From contig JAAXTX010000009.1 of NCBI GenBank assembly GCA_013336285.1, positions 1-32,040 on the forward strand: DNA of 32,040 bases, read 5' to 3'. The position numbers were made by a program, and so were the translations under genes. Positions 6,543-31,888 of the stretch are shown one piece after another. The stretch's first letter is position 1. Every line of letters starts with the position of its first letter. Origin of the DNA: Candidatus Moraniibacteriota bacterium. Lineage in GTDB: Bacteria; Patescibacteriota; Minisyncoccia; Moranbacterales; UBA1568. A model generated the notes under the pieces. It had not been told where the DNA came from and made no database searches. It was given only the letters and a program-made list of their open reading frames with translations.

Positions 6543-6840
6543 TCAGTCGGTTTTACGGCGTCCTATATTCCTAAGAACCTCGGGGAACCGTTCACCGAGA
6601 AGCCTCATCGAGTTCATGAGGGGAAGAAAGTCTGTAAGGAAATTATACGCCGCCGCGCCCTCCGGACCGAGTATCCGGGCAAAAACGAGCACGAGTCCGA
6701 TCACGTTCACGGTACCCCATATCACGAAATCCTGTTTCGCGATCGTCCCGACGGACCGTCCGATTTCGATCGCCTCGGGTATCTTGGAAAAGTCGTCCTT
6801 CATGAGCGCCACGTCGGCGGCTTCGATGGCCGCGTCCGTC
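6543..6840 (-). pseudogene. C-terminal remnant of a heavy-metal P1B-type ATPase
   Basis: Minus frame: RTDAAIEAADVALMKDDFSKIPEAIEIGRSVGTIAKQDFVIWGTVNVIGLVLVFARILGPEGAAAYNFLTDFLPLMNSMRL, the terminal portion of metal P-type ATPases. The catalytic upstream part is absent in this frame. Confidence 0.75.
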
Positions 6841-7080
6841 CGCCGCTTCCCGCTCGCCGATTCCGACCCATCGTTTCAATCGCTTCCAGAGAAGGATCCG
6901 CAGACCGAGGAGTTCCAAACCGATGACGATGATCCAGGACGCTGGAAACAACGGGATCAGATGCAGTAACAGACCGAATAGGACGAGAAAAGCGCCAAGT
7001 GGCTTCTTGAGCCATCCGTCCAGTTTCATCGTCTCCGTCATCCTGCTGATAGGATCGGGAGTTTCTTCCACGCGTTTCAT
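6643..7080 (-). CDS. Small membrane protein (first ~75 aa plausible) whose frame runs on over the P-type ATPase remnant
   Basis: MKLDGWLKKPLGAFLVLFGLLLHLIPLFPASWIIVIGLELLGLRILLWKRLKRWVG is a credible 2-TM protein. The C-terminus after GIGEREAADGR is low-complexity Arg-rich and overlaps the ATPase frame. Confidence 0.5.
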   Translation of the reverse strand: MKRVEETPDPISRMTETMKLDGWLKKPLGAFLVLFGLLLHLIPLFPASWIIVIGLELLGLRILLWKRLKRWVGIGEREAADGRGHRSRRRGAHEGRLFQDTRGDRNRTVRRDDRETGFRDMGYRERDRTRARFCPDTRSGGRGGV

Positions 7081-19218: not shown

Positions 19219-19366
19219 CGGTCTCAGTCATATCTATACGGCAAACAGACCATTCACACCCCTATTTTCCGACATTCCCTCACAACTGTAAAGCGGCTAT
19301 CCGCGGATGATTCGCATGCTCACCGAAAAAACAAGCCTCGTTCAAGCCTTCTTTTCCATCGGTTTC

Positions 19367-19531
19367 CTACCGCGTAAACGATGCGACCGCCAGGCCGATA
19401 TAGTACGGCCAGAGCACGATCGCGAGCAGTCCCTGGAAGAAGGCCAGGTGCAGGAACCCGATCGTGAACAGCCACCCGGCGAACCACGAGAACGCGGTGA
19501 ACCCGTGCTGCTCGACTTTTATCTTATCCAT
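19367..19531 (-). CDS. 54-aa small membrane protein, absent from the supplied ORF track
   Basis: ATG at 19531: MDKIKVEQHGFTAFSWFAGWLFTIGFLHLAFFQGLLAIVLWPYYIGLAVASFTR*. Two hydrophobic segments; sits 22 nt after the upstream gene. Confidence 0.75.
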   Translation of the reverse strand: MDKIKVEQHGFTAFSWFAGWLFTIGFLHLAFFQGLLAIVLWPYYIGLAVASFTR

Positions 19532-19553
19532 ACGAGTATGAATAACGGATTAC

Positions 19554-20330
19554 TTATTTGAAAGGTTTTCCGCAACCGATACCGGTCCGGTGAACATTCT
19601 CCGCTATCATATCGAGTATCCGGCTCACCCGCGCGTCCTCCTCATAATACACATACGAGAGTTCGTCGATCTTCTTGTCGGTCCGGATAAGATACGACTT
19701 TTGTGAGACCTGTTTCCCCTCTGCCGTTCCGTTTCCGATCGACGGGAAAAAGACCGCGTCATACCCTCCGATCTTCAGGTCGCGGTGTTCATATTTCTTG
19801 AACCAGAAAACCGAGCTGTCGTTGAAACCCGCGAAGGCGTCCTCGATGCCCGAATCGCTCCGGTTGGGAATGCAGCTCACATAAATCTCGCCGCCGTTTT
19901 CCGTCGACGCGTACCGGACGGGATGTTCCCCGTAATAGGGCGACCGGAGCACGATGCCGGCACTCGGATCTCCCGGCCGAACGACCGTCCAGTCGCTCGG
20001 ATACCGTATCGAGATACCCAACCCGTCATCATTGATTTTTTTCCATTTCGAGAAGTCCTCCACCTGCCATTTTGACTCCGCCGCCACGGCCGAGGACGCC
20101 CGTTCGTCCGGCTGCTCCATCGCGACGCTTGGGGCGGGCTCGGCAGGCACGGTTTGATCCGTCCGTTCCGGGACGGCTGCCGGTTCCGTCTCCGCCGCCG
20201 GGACGCGTTCCGGTGCGAATACGATGCCGGGCCACTCCCCTCCGAACGCGACGTATCCGAAAACCGCCATGCTGACACCGAGCAGAAAGATGATCGCGCC
20301 GACGACCGCCTTCTTATGGATATCGTTCAT
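19554..20330 (-). CDS. Membrane-anchored protein with PsbP-like (YPSDW) domain
   Basis: MNDIHKKAVVGAIIFLLGVSMAVFGYVAFGG..., GLGISIRYPSDWTVVRPGDPSAGIVLRSPYYGEHP. Track start 20420. Confidence 0.75.
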   Translation of the reverse strand: MNDIHKKAVVGAIIFLLGVSMAVFGYVAFGGEWPGIVFAPERVPAAETEPAAVPERTDQTVPAEPAPSVAMEQPDERASSAVAAESKWQVEDFSKWKKINDDGLGISIRYPSDWTVVRPGDPSAGIVLRSPYYGEHPVRYASTENGGEIYVSCIPNRSDSGIEDAFAGFNDSSVFWFKKYEHRDLKIGGYDAVFFPSIGNGTAEGKQVSQKSYLIRTDKKIDELSYVYYEEDARVSRILDMIAENVHRTGIGCGKPFK

Positions 20331-21611: not shown

Positions 21612-23174
21612 GTGCAAGATAAAAGGCAAAACGACAACTTCGACATCGAAAGGATGTCCAGAGAAACCGGTATTTCAATAGATACCATCAACCGTACGCT
21701 CGGTATGAAACCGGAAGTGACACGACCGAGACAGACCCAGATCGACCCGGACACCGAGGCAAGGGAGGCGTATCGTTCCGCTCCGGAAGGTTCGGAAACG
21801 AGAAAGAACGCCTTTGAGAAATGGCTTGGGCTCGTGACCACCGCACATGAGGCGAAAGTCGTGCATGATGCCGCGTCCGACGATTCGAAGATGCAAAAAA
21901 CGGCGTTTGAAAAGTGGCTCACGCTCGTGACAACCGCGACGGAAGCGGAGGAGGCGTACGATGCGGCGCCCGCCGGTTCGGAAGCGAAAAATACCGCACT
22001 TGAAAAGTGGAACGCGCTTTCGTTCAAGCAGGTCAAAGAAGCGACCGATGTCGAAGCGGCGGAAGCCGCGTACAATGAAGCGCCCGACGGTTCGGAAGCG
22101 GAAAAAGCCGCGGTGGAAAAATGGCTCGGACTCGTGACCACGTTCGATGAGGCGGAAGACTTGTACAACTATACGCCGAGCGGTTCGGAAGCGGAAAAAG
22201 CCGCGGTGGAAAAATGGCTCGGACTCGTGACCACCACCGATGAGGCGGAAGCGGTATATGATGCAACGCCTGACGGTTCAGCGGCACAATATTCAGCGCT
22301 GAATATATGGCTGGATCTCGCTACCACTATCGATGAAGTGAGAGAGGTCTACGATAACGCCCCCGAGGGTTCGAAAGTTCATACAGCCGCACTGAAAAAA
22401 TGGAACGGACTTTCGTTCAAACAGATCGAAGAAGCGACCGATGTCGAAGCGGCGGAAGCCGCATATGATGACGCGCCGGACGATTCGGATGCGCAAAATG
22501 CCGCGCTGACCAAGTGGCTCGAGCTGTCGACAGACGTCGATGACGCGGAAGCCGTATACGAAGCGGCACCGAGCGATTCAGAAATTGAAAAAGCGGCACT
22601 GGACAAATGGATCGGATTCACAACCACCCCCGAGGAAGCGGAAGCCGCATACGATGCCACACGCGACGGTTCTGAAGCGCAAAGGGCCGCGTTGAAGAAG
22701 TGGAACAGACTGTCCCTCAAACGGCTTGAGGCGGCAGTCACTGTCGAAGACGTGGAAACCGTGTACAATGATGCACCGACCGATTCGGAGGCGCAAAGGG
22801 CCGCGATCGAGAAATGGCTCGGACTGGCAAGCACGGCGAAAGAAATGAAGGCCGCACACGATGCCACACCGAGAAATTCGGAATCACGAAAGGCCGTACT
22901 GAAAAAATGGGACAGGCTCTCGCTCAGGCAGGTCGACGCGGCGATCACCATCGAGGAAGTGATCGCGGCGTATGATGACGCGCCGGACGATTCGGAGGCA
23001 CGGAGAGTCGCGCTTGAAAAGTGGAACGGACTTTCACTGATGCAGATCAGGGCAGCCACGACCGCGGGCAAAGCCGAAGCCGCGTTCCGTAGCACGCCGA
23101 ATAATCCGGAAACGAGAAAAACGGCGATGCGAAAAATCGCGAGCTTCTACGGATGGCAGGAACAGCCGCGGTAG
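21612..23174 (+). CDS. Helical-solenoid repeat protein (about 14 repeats of 31 or 37/38 aa) with HTH-like N-terminus; GTG start
   Basis: SD AAAAGGAGG then GTG at 21612; IERMSRETGISIDTINRTLGM; repeats of the form EAEAAYDxAPDGSEAxKAALEKWLGLxTT and EKWNGLSxxQxxxATxVE. Confidence 0.85.
   Translation: MQDKRQNDNFDIERMSRETGISIDTINRTLGMKPEVTRPRQTQIDPDTEAREAYRSAPEGSETRKNAFEKWLGLVTTAHEAKVVHDAASDDSKMQKTAFEKWLTLVTTATEAEEAYDAAPAGSEAKNTALEKWNALSFKQVKEATDVEAAEAAYNEAPDGSEAEKAAVEKWLGLVTTFDEAEDLYNYTPSGSEAEKAAVEKWLGLVTTTDEAEAVYDATPDGSAAQYSALNIWLDLATTIDEVREVYDNAPEGSKVHTAALKKWNGLSFKQIEEATDVEAAEAAYDDAPDDSDAQNAALTKWLELSTDVDDAEAVYEAAPSDSEIEKAALDKWIGFTTTPEEAEAAYDATRDGSEAQRAALKKWNRLSLKRLEAAVTVEDVETVYNDAPTDSEAQRAAIEKWLGLASTAKEMKAAHDATPRNSESRKAVLKKWDRLSLRQVDAAITIEEVIAAYDDAPDDSEARRVALEKWNGLSLMQIRAATTAGKAEAAFRSTPNNPETRKTAMRKIASFYGWQEQPR
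22088..22234 (+). repeat. Exact 54-bp direct repeat inside the solenoid gene (22088-22141 and 22181-22234), 93-bp period
   Basis: cggttcggaagcggaaaaagccgcggtggaaaaatggctcggactcgtgaccac occurs twice, offset 93 nt (31 codons). Confidence 0.85.
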
Positions 23175-23230: not shown

Positions 23231-23267
23231 GCAAAATAAAAAGGGTCAGCGTGCGTTTCGCTGACCC
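23230..23267 (-). terminator. Intrinsic terminator of the caspase-like gene
   Basis: Minus strand: GGGTCAGCgaaacgcacGCTGACCCTTTTTATTTTG. Confidence 0.88.
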
Positions 23268-23276
23268 ATGGGCCTT

Positions 23277-24174
23277 TCACAAGGGCGTCTGCTCGCTCAT
23301 TTGTTGCCGATAGTTCCGTTCGTTCTTGAGGAACGCCTCGTACGTATCCGGATTGATGGCCGCTCCATGACGGATGATCATCGGATGCTGCATTCCCTCC
23401 TTGAAGTATTCGTCATTGCGAAGGGCCGACAGGAACGCTTCCTCGATACTGATGCATCCGTCCCTATTCCGATCACCGGAACTCTCCCTGAAAGCGGAAA
23501 AGAACGCCTGTGGAAACGAATCCGACTTGCTTGTTTCGTCGGATTTCGATGCCGCTATCGCGATATAATTCTTATTCGCGGCGATCTTCTCGGCAAACCC
23601 GCCCCCCGTAGCACTGATCGAACACGAATACCGCATGCTTGGTGCGGAGTTCGCTGAAATACGACGCGAATTCGTTCGCATTGATATCGTTCCCGGACGT
23701 GCAGCTGAGCGTCGATACCGTGACCTCGCGTTTGCCGTTCAGGTCGGATATCGTCGTTTGGTCGCCATGATCGGTGGTATACACGAAGAACCTGTCTTCC
23801 GGCCGTATGCGGTCCCGGAGATGCCGTATCAGTGTCCTGATATTGATATTGGACGCCTCCCCGTCCACCGGATACCACGGCTTCCTGTCTCCGTCGCCGT
23901 CCAGGATATATATTTCCGACCGGCGATACCCGTTTTCAAGCAATACCTGATAGATGATGGAAGTATTACCCTGATATCGATCGTCGGAATTCCCGCTGAT
24001 CACGATGGCGAATTTCGACGGCTCCTTTACCGGAGCTTCGTTTTTGAACCGCTTCGTAAGACTGGCCGAAGGCGTCGTCTCCTCCGCAGGTTCATCAGGG
24101 AAACAGCCCGTCAGAAACACCATAAGAACGAGCAACGGTACCGAAAAGATTCGATACGCGAAACGAATTTTCAT
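23277..24174 (-). CDS. Lipoprotein caspase/legumain-like (C13/C14-fold) cysteine peptidase with EF-hand-like loop; frame interrupted in a G6 run
   Basis: Joins track ORFs 23572-24174 and 23277-23681. Lipobox VFLTGC; catalytic FFVYTTDHG and FVFDQCYGG; continuing in the shifted frame GGFAEKIAANKNYIAIAASKSDETSKSD...DRNRDGCISIEEAF. Confidence 0.8.
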
Positions 24175-24223
24175 CTGATCCCCCTTTGATTGATGATTAT
24201 CTTAGTTGTTAAATTAACGGGAT

Positions 24224-24251
24224 AATATACACTATTTTTTAAATATGTCAA
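24224..24251 (-). promoter_or_regulatory. Putative sigma70-type promoter of the caspase-like gene (TTGACA-16 nt-TATATT)
   Basis: Minus strand TTGACA (24251-24246), TATATT (24229-24224), about 50 nt upstream of the ATG. Confidence 0.6.
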
Positions 24252-29703: not shown

Positions 29704-30444
29704 CTATCCCAGATCGCACCCTTCCCAACTGTCGATCGTTTCCTGGTATCCCCGATCGATGGCGTACCGGCGCACCGCCTTGAAGACCTCTTTCTGCAAA
29801 CCGATATCCCCCGTCTCGAAGAGCCGACCGAGTATCGAGACGAATTCCCCGGCACTCCAGGGAAGGTGTTCCAACGGGTGATGTTCCAGGGCCCACAGGA
29901 TATACTTGCTGTACGGTTTTATCCGACCCTCGGCGGAGAACACGAACGCGAGCAGGCACTGCGCCGACTCGGTGGCATCGATACGCGAGGCGAACGCGTC
30001 CCCGTCCCTCCCGTTCTTCAGCGAACGATAGTAATGATTGATATAGGCGTCGAGATCGGCCTTCGCAGTCTCTTCGATGCGGTCTTTCGGGATCGTCCCC
30101 TTCTCGTCAATGATGCGCTGGATCTCCCCGTCCGTCCGATCGAACACCGTTTTGACGTGCGCGAAATTGTACCGGTCCCATTCCATCGGAGACCGGAACG
30201 ACGCGTATTCGCGAAGCGATTCGAGCGTATGTACGAAGATGTCAAACTTGTACGGCGTTATGGTCGAAGGGTAGGTCCGCTTCGCGGTCTCGACATACCC
30301 GTCCATCACGACGATAGAGATATCGTAATCCGAATGTTCGGTCACGAAGCCCTTCCCCCTTCCTCCAGTCAGCGCGAAACCGAGGACTTGGGAATCATTC
30401 CTCGCCGCTTCCAGTATCCGCTCGTATGTCTCGTCATTCGTCAT
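29704..30444 (-). CDS. Nucleotidyltransferase-fold protein
   Basis: VLGFALTGGRGKGFVTEHSDYDISIVVMDG (GG..DxD pattern) plus KFDIFVHTL. Start uncertain (30444 or 30462; track 30504). Confidence 0.7.
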   Translation of the reverse strand: MTNDETYERILEAARNDSQVLGFALTGGRGKGFVTEHSDYDISIVVMDGYVETAKRTYPSTITPYKFDIFVHTLESLREYASFRSPMEWDRYNFAHVKTVFDRTDGEIQRIIDEKGTIPKDRIEETAKADLDAYINHYYRSLKNGRDGDAFASRIDATESAQCLLAFVFSAEGRIKPYSKYILWALEHHPLEHLPWSAGEFVSILGRLFETGDIGLQKEVFKAVRRYAIDRGYQETIDSWEGCDLG

Positions 30445-30714
30445 ATCTTCAGTATCGCACATTCCTTCTCTTCCATCCGCATTCGAATCCTTCATTCGGA
30501 GCACAGCATGCCATTAAATGGTATGACAAGAAGGAGCTAAAAATGTACTTGACCCCTTTTCCATTCCAGCTGATTGAAGAGTAATGACAAGTTGCCCAAT
30601 ATAAGAAAGCTGGCGAAACCGTACGCGAATTTAAGAGCATTGCCCTTATTGGATAAAATAGAAAGATATAAATATACATATCTAAGCCTAAAATTTATGC
30701 TTTCATCCAATACT

Positions 30715-30775: not shown

Positions 30776-31888
30776 ATGATTTCTACAGAAATTATCATAA
30801 ATTTAATAAACTCATTCAAAAAAAATGATCGTCAGGAAATTGATAATGTCATTAAGAGTCTTATAGAAACTGCAGAAAAAAGAAAACAATACAAGTTAGC
30901 AAAAAAGCTGCGTGAAACATATGCATTAACTTCAGAAAATCATTTCCTCCCTTCCTCTCACACACCATCGAAATTTTCCAATTCGCATGAGCAAGATTCA
31001 AAACTTTTTGAAATAAGAAGATCTAAAATTAGAATTGGAGATATAATACTTTCAGATACAAACAAAGAAACACTCCAAGAAATAATAAACAATTATAAAA
31101 AAAGAGATCTTTTAAGAAAACATGGATTAAGTAATGATAGCAGATTGATTCTGCACGGCCCTCCCGGAACAGGAAAAACGCTATTCGCCTATGTTATTGC
31201 GGGAGAACTAGGTGTGCCGATTTACCATGTATACCTAGATTCACTCATTTCTTCATATCTCGGAGAAACAGGAAGAAATCTAAAGGAAATATTTAGAGAA
31301 GCATCAACAAATGATTGCATTTTACTATTAGATGAATTTGATGCGATAGCAAAGCATCGTGATGATTCACAAGAATTAGGAGAACTAAAAAGAGTAGTGA
31401 CAGTTTTGCTTCAAAATATTGATGACCTTAGCCCTGATACTATATTAATCGCAGCAACAAACCACGATCATCTCCTTGATTCGGCGGTATGGAGAAGATT
31501 TGATTATGCTCTCAAAATGGATGTGCTTTCCACCCCACTTCGAAAATCATTAATTCAAATGAATCTAAATAAGAATAATATTGATGTAAGCATCTTAGCT
31601 GAACTTTCGGAAGGCTTATCTGGCGCAATTATAAAACAGATTATTAATAAGAGTCTCAGAAAATCATTGCTTGATAAAAATGCTAGTGCTTTAGAAAAAA
31701 TTTTGATTGAGAACTTTTTAATTGAAACTGCGGGAAAAAATGATAAGCTAAAGGGTGGCCAAAGAAAAAACTTTATAAAAGCAATCAAATATCTAAGAAA
31801 AAGTGACCAATCGAAATACACCTTTGAAAAACTTGAAAAAATTACTGGGATTTCCTCTTCAACAATTCACAATATAATTAACAAATAG
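30776..31888 (+). CDS. AAA+ ATPase, SpoVK/Ycf46-like, resembling the ATPase of AAA-ATPase/subtilase (IetAS-type) pairs
   Basis: RLILHGPPGTGKTLFAYVIAGELGVPIYHV (Walker A), CILLLDEFDAIAKHR (Walker B), LIAATNHDHLLDSAVWRRFDY (sensor/Arg finger); N-terminal helical domain; HTH-like C-terminus FEKLEKITGISSSTIHNIINK. Confidence 0.88.
   Translation: MISTEIIINLINSFKKNDRQEIDNVIKSLIETAEKRKQYKLAKKLRETYALTSENHFLPSSHTPSKFSNSHEQDSKLFEIRRSKIRIGDIILSDTNKETLQEIINNYKKRDLLRKHGLSNDSRLILHGPPGTGKTLFAYVIAGELGVPIYHVYLDSLISSYLGETGRNLKEIFREASTNDCILLLDEFDAIAKHRDDSQELGELKRVVTVLLQNIDDLSPDTILIAATNHDHLLDSAVWRRFDYALKMDVLSTPLRKSLIQMNLNKNNIDVSILAELSEGLSGAIIKQIINKSLRKSLLDKNASALEKILIENFLIETAGKNDKLKGGQRKNFIKAIKYLRKSDQSKYTFEKLEKITGISSSTIHNIINK

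Follow-up and report, generated by a model that had tools for sequence, protein, structure and literature searches.

The locus raises a simple question: why does a gene for a secreted peptidase change reading frame immediately after its catalytic cysteine, and does this break belong to the cell or to the consensus sequence? The window, meaning the whole analysed stretch of 32,040 nucleotides, is one entire contig of the 1.35-Mb draft genome of a Patescibacterium (Candidate Phyla Radiation), which comprises 81 contigs and is rated 100% complete.

Results

A frame break next to the catalytic cysteine

ORF 1 lies on the minus strand (24174-23572) and translates into a lipoprotein of 200 aa, with a signal peptide and the lipobox LTGC (Cys24) at its start. 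As the original prediction described, it carries the motifs FFVYTTDHG and FVFDQCYGG, and after DQCYGG it runs into nine unrelated, off-frame residues (RVCREDRRE) and a stop. ORF 2, on the same strand in the next frame (23681-23277), has its own ATG at 23681; its first 24 residues are off-frame sequence, followed by the expected continuation GGGFAEKIAANKNYIAIAASKSDET. The frame changes at a run of six G (23607-23602, minus strand), and skipping one base at this run gives an uninterrupted joined protein of 298 aa. Blind to the finding, a Viterbi model of coding sequence that had been trained on the genome's long ORFs placed a one-base insertion at this very run. The features of the locus are as follows:

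23572..24174, minus strand: ORF 1, N-terminal half of the C13-like peptidase, with His136 and Cys188 (PF01650, 23.4 bits)
23277..23606, minus strand: second half of the peptidase, part of ORF 2, with GGGFAEK and onwards, the EF-hand-like loop DRNRDGCISIEE and the C-terminus
23602..23607, minus strand: G6 run, two residues past the catalytic Cys codon, where the model placed the insertion
24222..24251, minus strand: promoter-like site, TTGACA, 16 or 18 nt, TATATT or TATTAT, by an 11/12 match to the consensus only
23243..23267, minus strand: terminator-like hairpin of 9 pairs, 7 of them G-C, with a T tail, directly past the stop of the second half

The gene had also been credited with a consensus promoter and a strong terminator. 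A promoter-like and a terminator-like site are present; promoter-like sites, however, are no more frequent in the region than in shuffled sequence (2 against 1.8), whereas terminator-like sites are in excess (7 against 1.5). Convergent with the peptidase gene is a gene for a 520-aa protein (21612-23174, plus strand) with repeats of about 31 residues (93-bp period, 22051-22279); a profile search of this protein gave no family above cut-off.

A C13-type peptidase domain on a lipoprotein

Scoring the joined protein against PF01650 (Peptidase_C13; curated cut-off 22.8 bits), a check suggested by the original prediction, raises the match from 23.4 bits (E 5e-5) for ORF 1 alone to 41.5 bits (E 1.5e-10); ORF 2 alone gave no PF01650 match in the Pfam profile search. 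The same profile is matched by 27 of the 29 family members. Across the 29 aligned sequences H136, G137, Q187 and C188 are invariant; H136 and C188 form the His-then-Cys dyad of clan CD and align with the catalytic sites of legumain. When compared with the PDB, the family profile finds plant and animal legumains and metacaspase-4. The structural model of the joined protein (pLDDT 84.4, pTM 0.82) has the caspase/legumain fold, and its top Foldseek match is active legumain (4awb; E 3.2e-10, TM 0.57/0.65). Taken together, the profile, the model and the invariant residues identify the protein as a lipoprotein with a peptidase domain of the C13 type (clan CD). The legumain-like identity originally proposed is thus upheld by 28 homologues, a confident model and a legumain as the closest structure. 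In the alignment, a conserved R-Y falls opposite the Arg in the RHQ stretch of legumain, which is at most suggestive of cleavage after Asn/Asp.

The protein shares with legumain (asparaginyl endopeptidase, C13) the His-Gly ... Cys dyad in the same order (H136, C188). Unlike legumain, it is a 298-aa lipoprotein that has no C-terminal prodomain of the legumain kind, Gln precedes its Cys, an EF-hand-like loop follows the second half of the fold, and its frame is broken in the genome. C13 peptidases are already listed for bacteria and archaea (PMC4357240); therefore, the family is not new, and the locus is a new member of an already known peptidase family, in a broken state. Since the frame changes at 23607-23602, the locus is either a broken family member or the product of an error, and it should not be taken for an enzyme proven to work.

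Several other matches were set aside. The EACC1-associated caspase profile (NF047832) reached 13.2 bits against a cut-off of 140, and the NCBIfam match to NleH was weak and far under its cut-off. The PDB matches of the single protein to Kv-channel-interacting proteins only mirror the EF-hand-like loop, and the best stretches of the designed 'Pizza' proteins among the profile matches cover about 10 residues.

Relatives read through the junction in one frame

The scan for relatives took one genome per species and returned 28 loci, all of which (28/28) read through the junction in one uninterrupted frame. Past the catalytic Cys these relatives have in common GGF, the next strand and an HP/PQ-type motif, and here these elements lie in the second frame. 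The second frame also carries the D-x-[DN]-x-D-G EF-hand-like loop, which the alignment shows in 20 of the 27 relatives that reach it. The closest relative, from a DPANN archaeal MAG (Nanoarchaeum sp.; L012), aligns over residues 1-283 with 42% identity (46% before the junction and 47% after it). Among the gene windows of the genome, the upstream part ranks at percentile 60 and the downstream part at percentile 66 by coding score; codon usage is normal in both, and GC by codon position is in agreement. Normal codon usage downstream, together with conservation equal to that upstream, shows that the two frames belong together and that the break is either young or an artefact. Aligning orthologues around DQCYGG had been proposed as a means of judging the fusion; all 28 relatives continue in the joined frame. 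The position of the run, the blind placement of the insertion and the single frame of the relatives confirm that the frame break in this legumain-like lipoprotein gene is real and correctly read.

The C13 relatives from Portnoybacteria (L013) and DPANN archaea (L012 and L016) resemble the joined protein in size range and domain order, at 33-42% identity, and a signal peptide or lipobox is also found in L012 and L013. Their genes differ in being uninterrupted, and L013 has no EF-hand-like loop. Longer relatives come mainly from Bacteroidales and Fermentibacteria-type MAGs, most of them with the loop.

Five congeners were searched and the peptidase gene is absent from all of them, which argues that it is dispensable. 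The conserved flanks of the locus are rearranged in these genomes, and they were thus set aside as a source of orthologous alleles. Two short stretches of the window, 30329-30490 and 19366-19562, are 83-87% identical to congeners and are arranged differently there. The former opens a nucleotidyltransferase-like gene that survives in the congeners only as its first ~40 codons; the latter encodes a 54-aa membrane-like protein. A contaminant contig is unlikely, because codon usage follows that of the genome and stretches of the contig align to congeners with 65-87% DNA identity. A viral origin was also rejected: no related protein was found in viral contigs or phage records, and one plasmid gave a weak C13 match.

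Frameshifts, homopolymers and mismatch repair in the genome

The error statistics rest on 461,563 of the 1,346,173 bases of the genome, with 458 predicted genes. In this sample the Viterbi model proposed 20 shifts, mostly at overlapping gene pairs or contig ends, with a few ambiguous cases. Only two mid-gene breaks are convincing: the G6 run of the peptidase gene and, elsewhere on this contig, the remnant of a P-type ATPase gene. Of a heavy-metal P-type ATPase (TIGR01525, 39.8 bits), this remnant (6543-7080, minus strand) retains only the C-terminal ~80 residues; it is fused, out of frame, to an ORF for a small membrane protein and looks like a decayed gene. The sample holds some 45 runs of at least six G or six C, and the runs of 6 to 9 examined inside clear genes are in frame, for example a G8 in triosephosphate isomerase and a C9 in a glycosyltransferase-like gene (both assigned from translations). 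Since such runs are intact inside other genes, the assembly is not generally wrong at them. Longer tracts lie between genes or at gene ends, namely a G10 (L070:1871-1880), a G9 (L051:5533-5541) and a C8 (L063:16033-16040), and as candidate sites of tract-length variation they outrank the G6 run.

A profile search of the genome detected neither the MutS (PF00488) nor the MutL (PF01119) domain; among 14 control genomes, the MutS domain was found in 11 and the MutL domain in 11. With neither detected, mismatch repair appears to be missing and slippage mutations would go unrepaired, which raises the chance of a mutation and of a switch alike.

Near the end of the contig, at 30776-31888 (plus strand), lies a gene for an AAA ATPase that matches IetA of the IetAS anti-phage system (PADLOC, E 7e-102). 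It looks AT-rich compared with its surroundings, and its partner gene would fall past the contig end at 32040.

Discussion

We consider a recent loss-of-function frameshift by slippage in an accessory gene, possibly polymorphic, to be the probable explanation, by somewhat better than an even chance. The locus would then be an accessory gene for a secreted, membrane-anchored legumain-like cysteine peptidase (family C13, clan CD). One replication-slippage insertion in the short G run, left uncorrected where MutS and MutL are undetectable, would truncate the protein to about 200 residues. The truncated product would keep the His and the Cys; as the second half of the fold is gone, it is predicted to be inactive. 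The event appears to be recent, because both halves still look coding and carry no second lesion, and it may be polymorphic in the population. Neither further stops nor a second shift was found in either half. About 3.6% of single substitutions would create a stop; thus, a gene free of selection is estimated to have acquired a first stop by ~0.03 substitutions per site, and a stop-free state beyond ~0.1 substitutions per site would, by the same kind of estimate, be rare. The presence of another decayed gene, the P-type ATPase remnant, on the same contig also speaks for a recent loss. Against it, the intact promoter, terminator and codon usage fit a living gene equally well as a very young dead one.

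The surplus G could instead be an artefact of metagenome assembly or sequencing, with an intact gene in the cell. Codon usage, conservation and the promoter-like and terminator-like sites all look alive, the genome is a draft in 81 contigs, and a homopolymer is where indel errors fall. Yet among 461,563 bases and 458 genes this gene is broken in its middle together with only one evident remnant, and the other G and C runs of 6 to 9 inside genes, including the G8 of triosephosphate isomerase, are in frame. A consensus error is disfavoured by the rarity of frameshifts and by these intact runs, and we regard it as the main rival, possible but doubtful. It is also conceivable that the G run flips in and out of frame and that a fraction of the cells thereby turns its surface peptidase on and off. 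The gene encodes a surface lipoprotein, it has a mononucleotide run inside its coding sequence, and MutS and MutL are undetected; in being out of frame by one unit of a G tract, it resembles the phase-variable poly-G surface genes of Neisseria (PMC5953494). However, poly-G phase variation is called from G9 upwards, with G7 as the shortest tract cited as switching (PMC5953494); the tract here has six G against the cut-off of nine and, unlike the Neisseria tracts, is not conserved. Among the 28 relatives the longest G run at this place is 5, in one sequence, and mostly it is 2. Five or more G at the Gly-Gly site are expected in 34% of synonymous sequences, and G5 or C5 appears somewhere in the gene in 62% of synonymous draws under the genome's codon usage. 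Longer runs elsewhere in the genome are in frame. We consider such a switch unlikely. The broader proposal, that a Patescibacterium lacking mismatch repair employs G tracts even this short as switches that can be reversed, in this case for a legumain-like surface peptidase, seems to us unlikely.

A full-length product might also arise from the broken gene by a programmed +1 ribosomal frameshift or by polymerase slippage at G6. The sequence GGG GGG C lets the Gly tRNA re-pair once shifted by +1, and translation would then yield the conserved protein; but none of the 28 relatives has a frame shift, and the slip site has no stop codon, the zero-frame stop being nine codons off. CGG, the codon in the A site, is used for Arg more often than any other and is served by a cognate tRNA-Arg(CCG), so that it is not a hungry codon, and no stimulating RNA structure was found downstream of the run (z -0.43). 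The marks of a programmed frameshift gene would be a slip site that is conserved and places a rare codon or a stop in the A site, or else such a structure; the locus has neither, and we consider recoding very improbable. Finally, the two halves could be translated separately to form a genuine two-chain enzyme, in the manner of caspase subunits. ORF 2 does start with an ATG of its own (23681), and the frame breaks right behind the catalytic Cys. The first 24 residues of ORF 2 and the last 9 of ORF 1 are nevertheless off-frame, and all relatives are single chains, so that this arrangement is scarcely credible. Among the four options of the original prediction, a recent inactivation and an assembly error stand, while the other two do not show the signatures expected of them: for a slippery on/off switch the tract is too short and is not conserved in the 28 relatives, and for a programmed +1 frameshift the slip site is not conserved, the codon is not rare and the RNA structure is absent.

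A literature search on sequence-based switching in the Candidate Phyla Radiation found little, and if the reads held a mixture of G5 and G6, the locus would provide a case of it. In a host genome with no detectable MutS or MutL, short homopolymers may mutate faster. The locus also reveals a small group of legumain-like lipoproteins common to Patescibacteria and DPANN archaea.
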